NCBI RefSeq assembly: GCF_000016905.1
Contig: NC_009616.1
Location: 248,001 to 312,000, forward strand
Length of the DNA: 64,000 bases
Reading direction: 5' to 3'
Source: Thermosipho melanesiensis BI429
GTDB taxonomy: Bacteria > Thermotogota > Thermotogae > Thermotogales > Fervidobacteriaceae
A program made the translations under genes and the position numbers. This document shows positions 18,808 through 24,779 of this stretch, piece after piece. Below the pieces are notes generated by a model. The model had not been told where the DNA came from. It did no database searches and was given only the letters and a program-made list of their open reading frames with translations. Position 1 is the stretch's first letter. Every line of letters begins with the position of its first letter.

Positions 18808-19839
18808 ATGACAAAAGAAATTAATATCGGAAACGTAAAAATTGGTGGAAATAATCCAATTGCAATACAATCAATGACAAACACAAGAACAGAAAATATT
18901 ATTGAAACAATAGATCAAATAAAAAAACTTTATAAAGCAGGTTGTAATTTAGTAAGGGTTTCAGTTCCAACTTATGAAGCTGCGAAAGCACTAAAAACAA
19001 TTACAAAAAACTCCCCTGTACCAATAATAGCTGACATACATTATGATTACAAACTTGCAATTGAAAGTATTAAAAACGGCGCAAAAAAAATAAGAATAAA
19101 CCCTGGAAACATTGGAAACAAAGAAAAGGTAAAAGAAATAGTAAAAGTCGCAAATGAATATGGCATTCCAATCAGAGTTGGTGCAAATTCCGGTTCAATA
19201 TCAAAAGATTTTCAACATTTGGGAAAAGTAGACGCACTCTGTGAATCTACATTAAAAGAAGTAAGATTTCTAGAATCAATGGGGTTTTACAACATTGTAA
19301 TATCCGTAAAAAGTTCTGATGTTGTAGAAACAATAAAAGCGTATGAAAAAATCTCCTCTTTAGTTGATTATCCACTTCATCTAGGGGTTACAGAAGCAGG
19401 CACATACGAATGGGCAATAATAAAATCTTCCATTGCATTAGGGCACCTTCTGTACAAAGGAATAGGTGATACAATAAGGATATCTATATCAGGTGATCCA
19501 GTGAACGAGGTAATTGTAGCTAAAAAAATTCTTATATCATTGAATTTAAGAAAAGGACCTCAGATAATCTCCTGTCCAACGTGTGGAAGGACAAATATAG
19601 ACGTCGAAAAATGGGCCAAATTAATTGAAAAATATTTCATAAATTCAACATCAAATATCAAAATTGCAGTGCTGGGATGTGTGGTTAACGGTATTGGTGA
19701 AGGAAAAGGCGCAGACATCGGTATAGCAGGCATACCAAATGGCTTTATACTCTTTAAAAAAGGAAAGATAATAGGCCAATATAAAGAAGAAGAAATCATT
19801 AAAGTTTTAAAAGAACAAATTAACGCATTGGAAGAATAA
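18808..19839 (+). CDS. ispG: 4-hydroxy-3-methylbut-2-enyl diphosphate synthase (GcpE)
   Basis: IspG reduces methylerythritol cyclodiphosphate to HMBPP in the MEP pathway with a [4Fe-4S] cluster. The 343 residues have the TIM-barrel start ([11 protein letters not shown]), [21 protein letters not shown], and the cluster ligands Cys256 and Cys259 (SCPTCGR), Cys291 and Glu298 (CVVNGIGE). ATG follows AAAGGAGG. It is divergent from the HD-GYP operon with only 41 bases between. Its last 20 bases overlap the 3' end of the convergent DnaN-like gene. dxs at 4962 supplies the first step of the same pathway. Confidence 0.96.
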
Positions 19840-20851
19840 TAAATCTTTTTTTGCTGTTGGTGGTTATAAAAAGAAACATGTTAGATTTCATCAAAAGTAA
19901 ATTTTCACTCCCAAGTCGATTCAGTGAAGCTCTTAAGAAATATGCATTAGTGATCACTTGAAAATCTTCTGGAGAAGGTATTTCAACATGTCCTTTGTAT
20001 TCCATCTTTGAAGAAGATGCATAAAAGAAAATACCGTTTTTATTTCCCATTAGTTTTATACTTGAATTTCTACCAGAAATCATGGCCCTTCTCAAAAACC
20101 TTCTTATACCCTTCAATCCAACTTTTAAAAATTCTTTTGCCCTATAAAGTTCTTCTTCTAACAGATAAAGTGCTTGTTGGTCTAATTCTTCTCCACACAC
20201 ATTAAAAACGTGTTTTGCCTTCAAAACCAAAGCATTTACTCCCGCACCTATCTCAATATCACTGTCATTCAAAAGTTGTAATGATTTAATTAAATGTCTA
20301 GAAGAATAATACGGAATTCTCCATGAAAAAGGTATACTTTTGCCATCTCTTCTTACATAATTTATTATTCCACTATTTTCCGCAACTAATTTAAATGAAT
20401 CACCGAAAAATAGATCCACCATTCCACTTTCGTCAAGATGTGATGAAACAAAATCAAGATCATTCAAAAATTTATTTTTTGAAACATTTAATATTTTTTC
20501 ATATCTTTCCTCAAACTTTTTTATGTGAAACTCCTCCGCTTTTAACTTTAAACTCTCATCTTTTGCTTTCAAAAATACATACCTTCCATCTGAATAAATA
20601 TACACATCACCTGATAATTCGTAAACAAAAAACTTTAAAATATCCAATGGTAAAGTAAAGGAAAGGGTTGTTGGATTCATCTCTGAAACCTCATACTTTA
20701 CAGTTAAACACCCATCACTTCCAAACATATTTAAATATCCATGGTTATACGCAAAACCAACCCTTCGATTGGTCTTTTCGACACTTCCAACAACTTTATC
20801 TATTAATCTTAAAGCTTTCTTTATCTCATTACTATTTACAACTAATCTCAT
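19820..20851 (-). CDS. Divergent DnaN-like (sliding clamp) protein
   Basis: A 343-residue protein that I assign to the beta-clamp fold from its overall pattern: an N-terminal [30 protein letters not shown] with the strand-helix-strand layout of Dna[13 protein letters not shown], an internal repeat with [13 protein letters not shown] and later [14 protein letters not shown], and a C-terminus KRFIILPMR that matches the conserved PMR ending of bacterial clamps. It is diverged and lacks several canonical signatures (such as the ATDG-type and EFP segments), so it is more likely a paralogue than the replicative clamp. Start ATG has GAGGTGG upstream; own promoter at 20869-20896. Confidence 0.6.
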
Positions 20852-20903: not shown

Positions 20904-20932
20904 TTGATTATTTTTTCAAAATATGATATAAG
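20904..20932 (+). promoter_or_regulatory. Promoter of the pyrimidine operon
   Basis: TTGATT (20904-20909), 17-base spacer, TATAAG (20927-20932). Transcription should start near 20939-20941, giving a leader of about 120 bases before pyrC that holds a short reading frame and an intrinsic terminator. Confidence 0.7.
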
Positions 20933-20962
20933 ATATATGAAATGGCTTTGGGGGGTTAAAAT

Positions 20963-21013
20963 ATGTACAAAATATACTCGAACAAAAGTAAATATGTAAA
21001 AAATAAATCCTAA
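20963..21013 (+). CDS. Putative 16-residue leader peptide of the pyr operon
   Basis: ATG at 20963 opens a 16-codon frame (MYKIYSNKSKYVKNKS) ending at TAA 21011-21013. A G6 tract lies 7 bases upstream and resembles the GGGGG ribosome-binding site of pyrC. The stop codon directly abuts the 5' arm of the terminator hairpin, so a ribosome at the stop would cover that arm and could prevent termination. It is in the same frame as pyrC. Coding status is inferred from position; the peptide has no recognisable control codons and is Lys-, Tyr- and Ser-rich. Confidence 0.45.
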   Translation: MYKIYSNKSKYVKNKS

Positions 21014-21046
21014 AAATGGGGCTTTTGCCCCCATTTTCTTTATTTT
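21013..21046 (+). terminator. Leader terminator (attenuator) of the pyr operon
   Basis: A 9-bp stem AAAATGGGG/CCCCATTTT with a loop around CTTTTGC, followed by CTTTATTTTAT. It lies inside the leader, 15 bases before the pyrC start, so it must be regulated for the operon to be expressed. The G6 tract at 20950-20955 could pair with the C5 of the 3' arm as a competing structure. Confidence 0.8.
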
Positions 21047-21061
21047 ATAGGGGGTGATTGT

Positions 21062-22180
21062 ATTAAGGTATACGATCCATTCCAAAAAAAAGTATTTTAT
21101 GAAGACATAAAATTACCTGAAAACTTTAAAGGAAAGAATCTGTTATGCATACCAACTTTTTTTGACTTTCATACCCATGTAAGATTAAATAACAACCAAG
21201 AAGATTACAATTCCTTACAAAAAGCATGTATTGCTGGGGGATTCACCGAAGTGTTAATTCAGCCTAACACAAACCCAATTCTTGAAAACAAGCAGGTTCA
21301 CAAATACCATGAAAAACTAGTAGCAGATTCCCATGTAAGATTTTATCGTACCACATCACTTTTTGGAACTCAAAAGCCCTCAGACAACATATTATGTTAT
21401 TCCACAGATGGCATAAAATACACTTACAACGATTTAGTTGAAAATTTCTCCAGAAAAAAACCTGCTCTTGTCTTAGACCATAGTCAACTTTTTGAGCACG
21501 AAGGAATCTTTTACAAGGAAATTCTAGATATACCAAAACGTCCAATTACAAATGAAGCAATAGCAATAGCAAGAACTGTATTAACTGGTTTTGAATTTGG
21601 ATTTAAGGATTTTCATATCCAACATATTTCAACAACTTACTCACTTGAAATGATAGAATTTCTAAAAAAATGCGCAAACATTACCTGTGAGGTTACACCA
21701 CACCATTTGCTAATTTCAAATGAAGAAATATTAAATCCAAACTTTAAAATCAATCCTCCTTTATGTGATAAAAAAACCATCGAAATTCTAAAAGATGCCG
21801 TAAAAACAAATAAAATTGACATTTTAGCTACAGATCATGCCCCTCACCCAGAAAAACCAGCTGACTATAGAAAAGCACCTTATGGAACTTCAAATATAGA
21901 AATTGCATTCTCTGCTTTTTACACAGCACTTAATGACGTATACCTCGTTACAGATAAACTATGCTACGCTCCCCGTAAAAGATTGGGAATAAGTTATAAA
22001 TTTACAAGCGACAACTTAGTGATAGTGGATTTAAACCAAGAATTTACTGTTGAAAGCAAAAGATTCTTTAGTAAAGGAAAAAATTGTGCATTTGATGGTA
22101 TGAAACTCAAGGGAAAAATAATCGGGGTAAAAATAAATGGAAAGTGGGGGTATTGGAATGGAGAATACTTACTTGACTAA
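21062..22180 (+). CDS. pyrC: Dihydroorotase, probable ATT start
   Basis: PyrC closes carbamoyl-aspartate to dihydroorotate in UMP synthesis. The product is about 372 residues. The metal motif FDFHTHVR (about 36-43) lies upstream of the first ATG in frame (21251), so the true start must be further left. After the in-frame stop at 21011 there is no ATG, GTG or TTG before this motif. ATT at 21062 is preceded by AGGGGGTGAT with the same spacing as the ATG genes at 43576-46179 and 13459, and is my choice. Other signatures are IQPNTNP, EVTPHHLL and ATDHAPH. pyrK overlaps its end by 23 bases. Confidence 0.9.
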   Translation: MKVYDPFQKKVFYEDIKLPENFKGKNLLCIPTFFDFHTHVRLNNNQEDYNSLQKACIAGGFTEVLIQPNTNPILENKQVHKYHEKLVADSHVRFYRTTSLFGTQKPSDNILCYSTDGIKYTYNDLVENFSRKKPALVLDHSQLFEHEGIFYKEILDIPKRPITNEAIAIARTVLTGFEFGFKDFHIQHISTTYSLEMIEFLKKCANITCEVTPHHLLISNEEILNPNFKINPPLCDKKTIEILKDAVKTNKIDILATDHAPHPEKPADYRKAPYGTSNIEIAFSAFYTALNDVYLVTDKLCYAPRKRLGISYKFTSDNLVIVDLNQEFTVESKRFFSKGKNCAFDGMKLKGKIIGVKINGKWGYWNGEYLLD

Positions 22181-22802
22181 AAAAGAAACTCTAAAAATAA
22201 ACGAAGACACTTATTTAATAACACTTGAAAATATCAATTTTGAAATTGGACAATTTTTAATGATAGAAACAAACAAATTAGTTAGAAAACCATTTATTTT
22301 AGGTACTTGGGACGGTAAAACAGCTATATCAGTCCAAATTAAAGGAAAAGGAACTAAACATATAGTCGAAACAACCCAAACACTAAAAGCTCATTTTCCC
22401 CTTGGAAATCCTTTTATTCCCCCAAAAGGAAAAGGAATAGTAATAATCTCACCCACATGTTTAACATTAGCAAATTTAATGACTGAAAAATACAATTGTG
22501 ATGTATTGGTTGGTAGTAAAACTCCTTTAAAAATAAAAATTCCTTTTGACTATGCAATTGGTGATGAATATTTTGCACAAAAAATTGATAACCTAAATAC
22601 ATATGATTGGTATCTTATATCTGGCTCAAAAAGTATGGAAGAATTCGTACTTTCTAAAATAGACTCACCAAACGTCTTTGTTTCTTTGGAAGAATATATG
22701 GGCTGTGGTATAGGTGCATGCAAAAGTTGTGCGATATTTACAAAAAATGGCGTAAAACATGTGTGTACCGACGGACCAATATTTAGGAGGGATATGTTAT
22801 GA
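22158..22802 (+). CDS. pyrK: Dihydroorotate dehydrogenase electron-transfer subunit
   Basis: PyrK carries FAD and a [2Fe-2S] cluster and passes electrons from PyrD to NAD+ in the type 1B enzyme. The 214-residue protein has a ferredoxin-reductase-like FAD domain (FEIGQFLMIETN, RKPFILGTW), a nucleotide-binding half that is rather degenerate, and four cluster cysteines Cys183, Cys188, Cys191 and Cys203 (CGIGACKSC and HVC), ending in DGPIF. ATG at 22158 follows GGGGGT; a frame opening at 22137 has no RBS. ATGA overlap links it to pyrD. Confidence 0.93.
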   Translation: MENTYLTKKETLKINEDTYLITLENINFEIGQFLMIETNKLVRKPFILGTWDGKTAISVQIKGKGTKHIVETTQTLKAHFPLGNPFIPPKGKGIVIISPTCLTLANLMTEKYNCDVLVGSKTPLKIKIPFDYAIGDEYFAQKIDNLNTYDWYLISGSKSMEEFVLSKIDSPNVFVSLEEYMGCGIGACKSCAIFTKNGVKHVCTDGPIFRRDML

Positions 22803-23614
22803 ATCTAAAACCACCCCTAATTATTGCATCGGGCCCAGGTGGTAATGGTGAATATCTAAAATTTATAAACCCTGAATACGTAGGTGCATATACACTGAAA
22901 ACAATAACCTACAATCCAAAAGATGGAAATAAACCTCCAAGAATGCGTGACAACGAAAATTTTGTAATTAACAGCATTGGACTTGAAAATCCTGGGATAA
23001 AACATTTTGTAGAAAATATAGAAAAATACGTTTTGAATACAAAAACTATTTTGAGTCTTGGGGGGGATTCAAAGGAAGAATATATAAAAGTTGCAGAAAT
23101 TATCTCACCTTATGCAAAGTATTTTGAAGCAATAGAATTTAACTTTTCATGTCCAAATGTAAAAAAAGGTGGTTTATCAATAATAACCGATAAAAGTGAT
23201 TGGGAAGAAATTTTGAAAAGGGTAAGAAAAATACTCCCAAATACATTCTTGATTGCAAAATTAAGTATTGAAGGACACTTTGTAGAAATCTCATCACAAA
23301 CAGTTGCAAAAAATGCTTGGGATGGTCTAACTTTAATTAATTGTGTAAGGGGGCTGATGTTTGAAGATGGAAAAATAATCACCGGTGGCATATCTGGTCC
23401 ACTTTTAAAACCAATTTCTTTGCGTGCAATTTACGAAGTAAGAAAAAGACTAAGAGATATATATATAATAGCTTCAGGAGGCATTTACTCTAAAGAAGAC
23501 GCAAAAGAATTCCTAAATATAGGTGCCAACGCAATTTCCATAGGAAGTGCATTATTTAAAGATCCACAAATTGTAGAAGAGATTGGAAAATATTTGAAAG
23601 GAGTGGAAAAATGA
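22799..23614 (+). CDS. pyrD: Dihydroorotate dehydrogenase, catalytic subunit (type 1B)
   Basis: Oxidises dihydroorotate to orotate with FMN. The 271 residues form the TIM barrel: SGPGGNGEYL at the N-terminus, TLKTITYNPKDGNKPPRM with the conserved Lys, NSIGLENPGI, EFNFSCPNVKKGG where the cysteine is the type 1B catalytic base, INCVRG, and GGISGPLLKPISL and ASGGIYSKEDA for phosphate binding. The start overlaps pyrK (ATGA) and its stop overlaps pyrF (ATGA), so the three are tightly coupled. Confidence 0.95.
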   Translation: MNLKPPLIIASGPGGNGEYLKFINPEYVGAYTLKTITYNPKDGNKPPRMRDNENFVINSIGLENPGIKHFVENIEKYVLNTKTILSLGGDSKEEYIKVAEIISPYAKYFEAIEFNFSCPNVKKGGLSIITDKSDWEEILKRVRKILPNTFLIAKLSIEGHFVEISSQTVAKNAWDGLTLINCVRGLMFEDGKIITGGISGPLLKPISLRAIYEVRKRLRDIYIIASGGIYSKEDAKEFLNIGANAISIGSALFKDPQIVEEIGKYLKGVEK

Positions 23615-24222
23615 TTCCAGTATTAAGTTTGGATATGGAAAATCCATTGGAATTTATTGAAAAAATGGGAAGCTTTGAAACAGTAAAAGTAGGACATAAT
23701 TTAGCAATATACGGGAAAAAAATACTAGATGAACTTTACCAAAAAAATCTAAAAGTCATTTTAGACCTAAAATTTTGTGATATACCTTCTACGGTGGCTC
23801 GTTCCATCAAAAGTTGGGACCACCTGGCAATAATTGGTTTTACAGTCCACAGTGCAGCTGGTATAGATAGTCTAAAAGCTGCTCTTAACTCTACAGACAA
23901 ACTCATCTTTTCAGTTATTAAATTAACATCCCAAATAGGAAATTTAGATGATTATCTAGAAACAATTAAAATACTTGATAATTTAAATAGCTCTTTTGTT
24001 TTACCTGGGAAATGGGCAATACAACTTAGAAATAAAATAAAAGGAAAATTTTTAGTACCAGGAATTAGAATGGAAATAAAAGCGGATGACCAAAAAGATG
24101 TAATCACCCTTGACCAAGTTAAAGATATAGCAAATTACGTAGTTTTGGGAAGAGAAATATACCTTTCAAAAAATCCAAAAAGTAAAATAGAAAAAATAAA
24201 GGAGGAATTAAAATGTCAATAG
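23611..24222 (+). CDS. pyrF: Orotidine 5'-phosphate decarboxylase
   Basis: Decarboxylates OMP to UMP, the last step of de novo synthesis. The 203-residue protein has the catalytic signature [11 protein letters not shown] (Asp-Lys-Asp array, about 51-61), an early [19 protein letters not shown] and a C-terminal VPGIRME and VVLGREIY phosphate-binding region. Its length is short but within the range of the compact bacterial and archaeal type. ATGA overlap with pyrD and 10-base overlap with pyrE. Confidence 0.94.
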
Positions 24223-24779
24223 AAGAAATTCTTGAAAAATCAGGAGCAATTTTAGAAGGACATTTCATATTATCATCGGGCAATCACTCAGAAAAATACG
24301 TACAATGCGCAAGGTTATTTGAAAATCCCACTTACGGAGAAATGGTTGGAAATATGCTTGCAAAAAAGATAAAAAAGTACAACCCTGACTTAATAATAGG
24401 CCCCGCTATGGGTGGGATACATATTGCATATGTTACAGCAAAATATTTAAACAAAAGAAATATATTCACAGAAAGAGAAAATGGAAAAATGACTCTAAGA
24501 AGAGGATTTAAAATAATACCAGGGGAAAAAGTCGCCATAATTGAAGATGTGATAACTACAGGAAAATCTGTTAAAGAAGTGATAGAAATTGTAGAAAAAA
24601 TGGGTGGAAAAATTTGTTGTATAGCATCAATTATCAATAGGGCAGATGAAAATCCTTTCAAATATCCATATGAATATTTGACAAAAATTGAAATACCAAT
24701 ATACAAGGAAGATGAATGTCCATTATGCAAAAAAAATATTCCACCGGAAAAACCAGGAAGTAGATATCTAAAAAAATAA
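24213..24779 (+). CDS. pyrE: Orotate phosphoribosyltransferase
   Basis: Transfers ribose phosphate from PRPP to orotate to give OMP. The 188 residues have the PRPP-binding motif [13 protein letters not shown] (about 108-120), [15 protein letters not shown], and [11 protein letters not shown]. The C-terminal end carries CPLCKKN, a short Cys pair seen in some thermophilic members. ATG follows AAGGAGG. It is the last pyr gene; pyrB and carAB are not here, so carbamoyl-aspartate must be made elsewhere. Confidence 0.95.

Follow-up and report, generated by a model that had tools for sequence, protein, structure and literature searches.

The window (the whole 64,000-nucleotide stretch of Thermosipho DNA analysed here) belongs to a genome of one single contig of 1,915,238 bases, and harbours an operon of five genes named by profile, in the order pyrC-pyrK-pyrD-pyrF-pyrE. 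Between the promoter and pyrC lie a short leader frame, preceded by a run of six G residues as its Shine-Dalgarno (SD) sequence, and an intrinsic terminator (Table 1). The operon is adjoined by a divergent gene on the minus strand (19820-20851), whose product of 343 amino acids is without Pfam or NCBIfam match. The locus was compared among four Thermosipho-like genomes, namely the analysed genome (G000), G012, G013 and G014; the last two are near twins, and the set therefore represents three lineages of shared ancestry. A search of the genome contigs for additional Thermosipho loci returned none beyond these four.

Table 1. Features of the pyr leader and operon (positions in the window)
Feature	Positions	Strand	Details
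Promoter	20904-20932	+	-35 TTGATT 20904-20909; 17-nt spacer; -10 TATAAG 20927-20932; TG upstream of -10
G6, SD of leader frame	20950-20955	+	In 4/4 genomes, 6-8 nt 5' of leader ATG
Leader frame, 16 codons	20963-21013	+	MYKIYSNKSKYVKNKS; ATG 20963, TAA 21011-21013
Intrinsic terminator	21013-21048	+	Hairpin 21013-21037 (GGGG 21018-21021, C5 21028-21032); U-rich tail to ~21048
SD of pyrC	21050-21057	+	GGGGGTGA; G-rich SD kept 4-5 nt 5' of ATT/ATA in 4/4 genomes
pyrC (dihydroorotase)	21062-22180	+	NF006840, 622 bits, match from profile residue 5; predicted start codon ATT 21062-21064
pyrK-like (dihydroorotate dehydrogenase electron transfer subunit)	22137-22802	+	Below NCBIfam cut-off; PF10418
pyrD-like (dihydroorotate dehydrogenase)	22799-23614	+	PF01180
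pyrF (orotidine-5'-phosphate decarboxylase)	23611-24222	+	TIGR01740 above cut-off
pyrE (orotate phosphoribosyltransferase)	24213-24779	+	TIGR01367 above cut-off

The promoter block, CTTGAT[TA]A...AAATATGATATAA, was nearly invariant in the four genomes, and its extended -10 element predicts a transcription start at approximately 20939-20940, in agreement with the start near 20940 given by the first-pass annotation of this DNA. The 16-codon frame, its G6 SD and a terminator from 21013, which that annotation had also described, could be read in the sequence, and the layout was kept in all four genomes, with conservation of the terminator hairpin and its U-rich tail.

The first-pass annotation placed the start of pyrC 15 bases behind the terminator. 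The position stood, but the start codon had to be corrected to ATT, as there is no in-frame ATG, GTG or TTG in the analysed genome between the leader stop and approximately codon 63. The corresponding codons in the four genomes are ATT, ATA, ATT and ATT, each with a strong SD 4-5 nt upstream, and the homologous position in relatives carries ATG, GTG or TTG (apparently CTG in locus L104). In the other three Thermosipho-like genomes, canonical upstream codons occur only in the hairpin or the SD and have no SD of their own. Translation of pyrC would begin at ATT/ATA, with the upstream codons as possible starts in three of the four genomes. Conserved AUU/AUA starts with an extended SD upstream are known in Staphylococcus, and in S. 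aureus their output is roughly 10% of that from AUG (PMC13009471); a translational damper on PyrC is for this reason the simplest reading, and the AUU start probably reduces PyrC output compared with that of the genes behind it. Gene finders restricted to ATG, GTG and TTG would miss or misplace this genus-conserved start.

SD-led leader frames of 16, 18, 17 and 17 codons were present in the four Thermosipho-like genomes, and in every case the leader stop ends exactly 4 nt 5' of the GGGGC of the terminator. The leader peptides of the three distinct versions (MYKIYSNKSKYVKNKS, MKILFFNKRENKYYIKNT and MKTFEQKLKINIFHINP) are dissimilar. As the gap is invariant while the peptide is unconserved and its length varies, it appears to be the act of leader translation that matters, and not its product. 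When each leader was shuffled with its dinucleotides preserved, 0.08-0.22% of the shuffles placed a stop at exactly 4 nt 5' of the hairpin and 0.7-2.3% placed one within 8 nt; the four leaders share ancestry and these odds are not independent trials, but frame and gap have outlasted the changes in length. The frames of the near twins G013 and G014 differ by one silent change and the preceding 30 nt by approximately three changes, a weak difference in the expected direction. The hairpin and promoter scans by themselves were not clearly above the shuffles, and the fold of the leader was not unusually stable (z -0.27). It is the geometry of frame and terminator that exceeds chance, and not the hairpin, the promoter or the fold energy. 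The hairpin count and fold energy would suit an incidental short frame, set before an ordinary weak terminator with constitutive read-through; that explanation is very improbable, given that the geometry was kept through length changes at low chance and that parallel frames are found in other genera.

The base rate of this layout was assessed in 20 spread stretches of 20 kb of the genome. A terminator-like hairpin lay at most 60 nt upstream of 11 of 339 sampled genes, and a few of these hairpins abut the stop of an ordinary gene; one of the 11 genes is pyrB itself and another follows an apparent TPP riboswitch. A terminator directly behind a stop codon is uncommon, yet not unique to pyr genes, and the layout at pyrC is in part one that other genes show too.

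A CCT before or at the leader stop (alignment columns 129-140, window approximately 21009-21020) is invariant though its codon phase differs, and shows a weak covarying pairing with the 5' arm of the hairpin. The consensus fold of the four leaders contains small conserved alternative pairings, between CCU at the frame end and GG of the hairpin, and between the C-run and the SD of pyrC. These pairings were given no weight, being negligible or weak at 70 C and drawn from four sequences only. Read-through of leader translation into pyrC was rejected, as the frame is shared in G000 and not in G012.

Outside Thermosipho, the comparison took in 15 terminator-bearing pyrC leaders. In all 15 of these Thermotogota leaders an SD-led frame enters or crosses the terminator ahead of pyrC. 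Nine of them, from Fervidobacterium and a sister genus, have a frame of 65-97 codons that crosses the terminator and starts inside a PyrR-binding hairpin formed by its first codons (for example GGTTAATTTGGTCCAGCGAGGCCAAAACC); this frame reads MVNLV[QL]RG..., or LVQRGQN... from a TTG start. The chance of the frame layout in Fervidobacterium was 0.004-0.04 per leader. A frame start inside the PyrR hairpin would make the best sense if leader translation decides termination. No PyrR box was seen in the other six leaders; in one of these genomes (G021) frame and terminator were present and no match to PyrR was found, and the remaining ones have PyrR. The chance that these six short frames stay open to the terminator was 0.10-0.27 given the start codon; since a single open frame is not rare here, it is the agreement among the leaders that counts. 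With a box in nine leaders and none in six, the common element would be leader translation meeting the terminator, and PyrR an optional gate. The first-pass annotation had proposed a comparison across Thermosipho and Fervidobacterium, in which absence of conservation would count against its reading; frame and terminator were kept in Thermosipho, with equivalent frames in Fervidobacterium. Its suggestion that a ribosome at the leader stop would cover the 5' arm of the hairpin is likewise favoured by the conserved frame, SD, gap and terminator, and by the equivalent frames in other Thermotogota. In four genomes of another genus of the family (G015-G018, genus g4) no match to Thermosipho PyrC was obtained at E 0.001, and three of the four have PyrR.

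A protein for which Pfam reports only a phosphoribosyltransferase domain is encoded in all four Thermosipho-like genomes, and a reading of its sequence identifies it as a putative PyrR. Whether its binding site occurs in the pyrC leader was already doubted by the first-pass annotation, and the searches agreed: RF00515 gave no match at the leader even at E 1, no box with one mismatch was found there, and Rfam over the whole window returned nothing at the leader. The exact PyrR box GTCCNGNGAGGCC is present in one or two copies per Thermosipho-like genome, none of them at pyrC. Above threshold, RF00515 matched only purE in these genomes, with a sub-threshold match at uraA of G000. The purE box (G000:C1:1244839-1244968; loci L032 and L079, also L030, L031 and L033) lies upstream of the gene in all four genomes, and its right flank, AAAGGAG, doubles as SD for a short frame running into or through a terminator; in three genomes this frame has 29-31 codons, crosses the terminator and stops just 5' of purE. 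The purE leader may thus use the actuator of the pyrC leader, gated by PyrR, and PyrR may control purine genes in Thermosipho. One Fervidobacterium genome (L083, G005:C1:1418800-1422500) has a PyrR box lying across the SD of a uracil-permease-like gene, with purK-like and purE-like genes behind it. CarA (TIGR01368) had no match at E 1e-40 in G000, G012, G013 or G014, and there was no carA leader to compare.

The presence of PyrR in all four genomes, the Fervidobacterium pyrC box covering the leader start and the similar purE leader of Thermosipho might indicate that PyrR, in the manner proposed for Thermus, binds a diverged site in the pyrC leader and keeps the frame from being translated. This is improbable: besides the negative RF00515 and motif searches, the G6 SD lies in no stable hairpin at 70 C, and purE and uraA of this genome do carry clear boxes. 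On folding at 70 C the terminator was the sole stable structure of the leader, and with no other such structure, initiation at the leader frame itself seems to be unregulated.

The first-pass annotation had further considered that G6 could pair with the C5 of the terminator as an antiterminator. A switch made of RNA alone, by this pairing or by the poly-G reiterative transcription known from Bacillus subtilis pyrG, would use the G6 and the C-rich arm found in all four genomes, but it hardly deserves consideration. The forced G6:C4 structure was weaker than the optimum by 4.6-17 kcal/mol at 37 C and by 3.1-9.0 kcal/mol at 70 C, and G6 lies approximately 11 nt past the predicted start, and not at it as in the pyrG-type attenuator. 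G-rich SDs are also common in this genome, runs of at least five G preceding 33 of 218 sampled gene starts, and G6 is here an ordinary SD.

The mechanism that these comparisons and the precedents from E. coli point to, with reasonable though far from complete confidence, is a translation-coupled transcription attenuator in which the pace of the polymerase under low UTP and CTP gates the ribosome at the terminator. RNA polymerase would start at approximately 20940, and ribosomes would bind the accessible G6 SD and proceed through the 16-codon frame. With the polymerase ahead of the ribosome, the hairpin would form and transcription would end before pyrC. With the polymerase slowed at low UTP and CTP, the ribosome would reach the leader stop in time to cover the GGGG of the hairpin, and transcription would run on into pyrCKDFE. 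Termination would be the default and read-through the consequence of a slower polymerase, as the stop is 4 nt from the hairpin and the SD approximately 70 nt from it. The frame has a U content of 0.24, which places it at the 15th percentile among gene starts, in accordance with the first-pass remark that the leader is U-poor; the relatives have 0.29-0.33. As the frame is not U-rich, the pausing would have to be at the terminator, perhaps at the pyrimidine-rich stretch CUUUUGCCCCC...UUUUCUUUAUUUU, which begins in the hairpin loop.

In E. coli, termination fell from approximately 90% to less than 10% when a stop codon was shifted from 28 to 5 bp before a terminator, an effect that needed translation; unless the polymerase pauses, terminators lying less than 100 bp into a frame are as a rule not suppressed (PMC4824070). 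The E. coli pyrBI operon works by such transcription-translation coupling with polymerase pausing (PMC5021804). By analogy, a ribosome would suppress a terminator lying 4-5 nt behind the stop codon. The sensor in Thermosipho, we infer, is most likely the pace of RNA polymerase under pyrimidine limitation. The same gate might instead be without pyrimidine sensing and report translation capacity, growth state or a leader amino acid, the peptide being rich in Lys, Asn and Tyr. The SD unstructured at 70 C, the U-poor leader and the failure to find a ligand or PyrR site all speak for this; as the peptides are unconserved, no amino acid is consistently featured, and in relatives this layout is connected with the pyrimidine sensor PyrR, so that we regard it as unlikely, if deserving of attention.

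Judged by the conservation of its layout, the ribosome-gated (pyrBI/rph-pyrE-like) attenuator is real and conserved, with a sensor that varies between lineages. A more tentative proposal, and one we hold as possible rather than probable, is that the order has a single ancient pyr attenuator, gated by the ribosome, whose sensor was exchanged: PyrR would gate the Fervidobacterium leader, and Thermosipho pyrC, without the box that was kept at purE and uraA, would read polymerase pace alone, without a U-rich leader and with the addition of the AUU/AUA start of pyrC. No account of pyr attenuation in Thermosipho was found in the literature searched. Translation-coupled pyr attenuation is known mainly from enterobacteria; the polymerase-paced attenuator would carry it over to deep-branching thermophiles, and would offer a natural series with a fixed actuator (the ribosome on the terminator) and a changing sensor. 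It also yields a testable prediction on transcription-translation coupling in Thermotogota.

Several known systems share parts of this layout. No conserved run of regulatory codons, as in amino-acid leaders of the trp/his type, was found across the three distinct leader peptides. The Bacillus PyrR attenuator (RF00515) likewise controls pyr genes, and PyrR is also encoded in the Thermosipho genome, whereas the pyrC leader has neither a PyrR-binding hairpin nor an antiterminator. In the model reportedly put forward by Van de Casteele in 1997 for the pyr operon of Thermus ZO5, translation of the leader keeps the terminator from forming, and PyrR is the proposed gate. This model suits the leaders of Fervidobacterium pyrC and Thermosipho purE, where PyrR would gate the frame, in contrast to the box-less Thermosipho pyrC leader. 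The AUU/AUA start resembles those of Staphylococcus cvfC1 and ccpN and of E. coli infC and pcnB in combining a strong SD with a genus-conserved non-canonical start; it differs in being a predicted start, and in belonging to a metabolic gene directly 3' of an attenuator.

The leader of E. coli pyrBI, pyrL, has approximately 44 codons, is U-rich and crosses the terminator. The Thermosipho locus shares with it the order of an SD-led leader frame that brings the ribosome onto a terminator ahead of pyr genes, a likeness of layout only, and in pyrBI the ribosome suppresses termination; the Thermosipho frame, however, has 16 codons and ends 4 nt before the terminator, and its leader contains no U-rich pause region upstream of the terminator. 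With E. coli rph-pyrE it shares a translation stop few nt 5' of a terminator that precedes a pyr gene, although the upstream frame at pyrC is a leader of 16-18 codons and not a full gene. The closer match is Thermosipho pyrB. In all four Thermosipho-like genomes, the stop codon of the gene upstream abuts a terminator approximately 30 nt before the pyrB start, and the gap between terminator and pyrB leaves little room for a promoter. The predicted pyrB locus is thus of the rph-pyrE layout, with a full gene upstream and its stop against the terminator.
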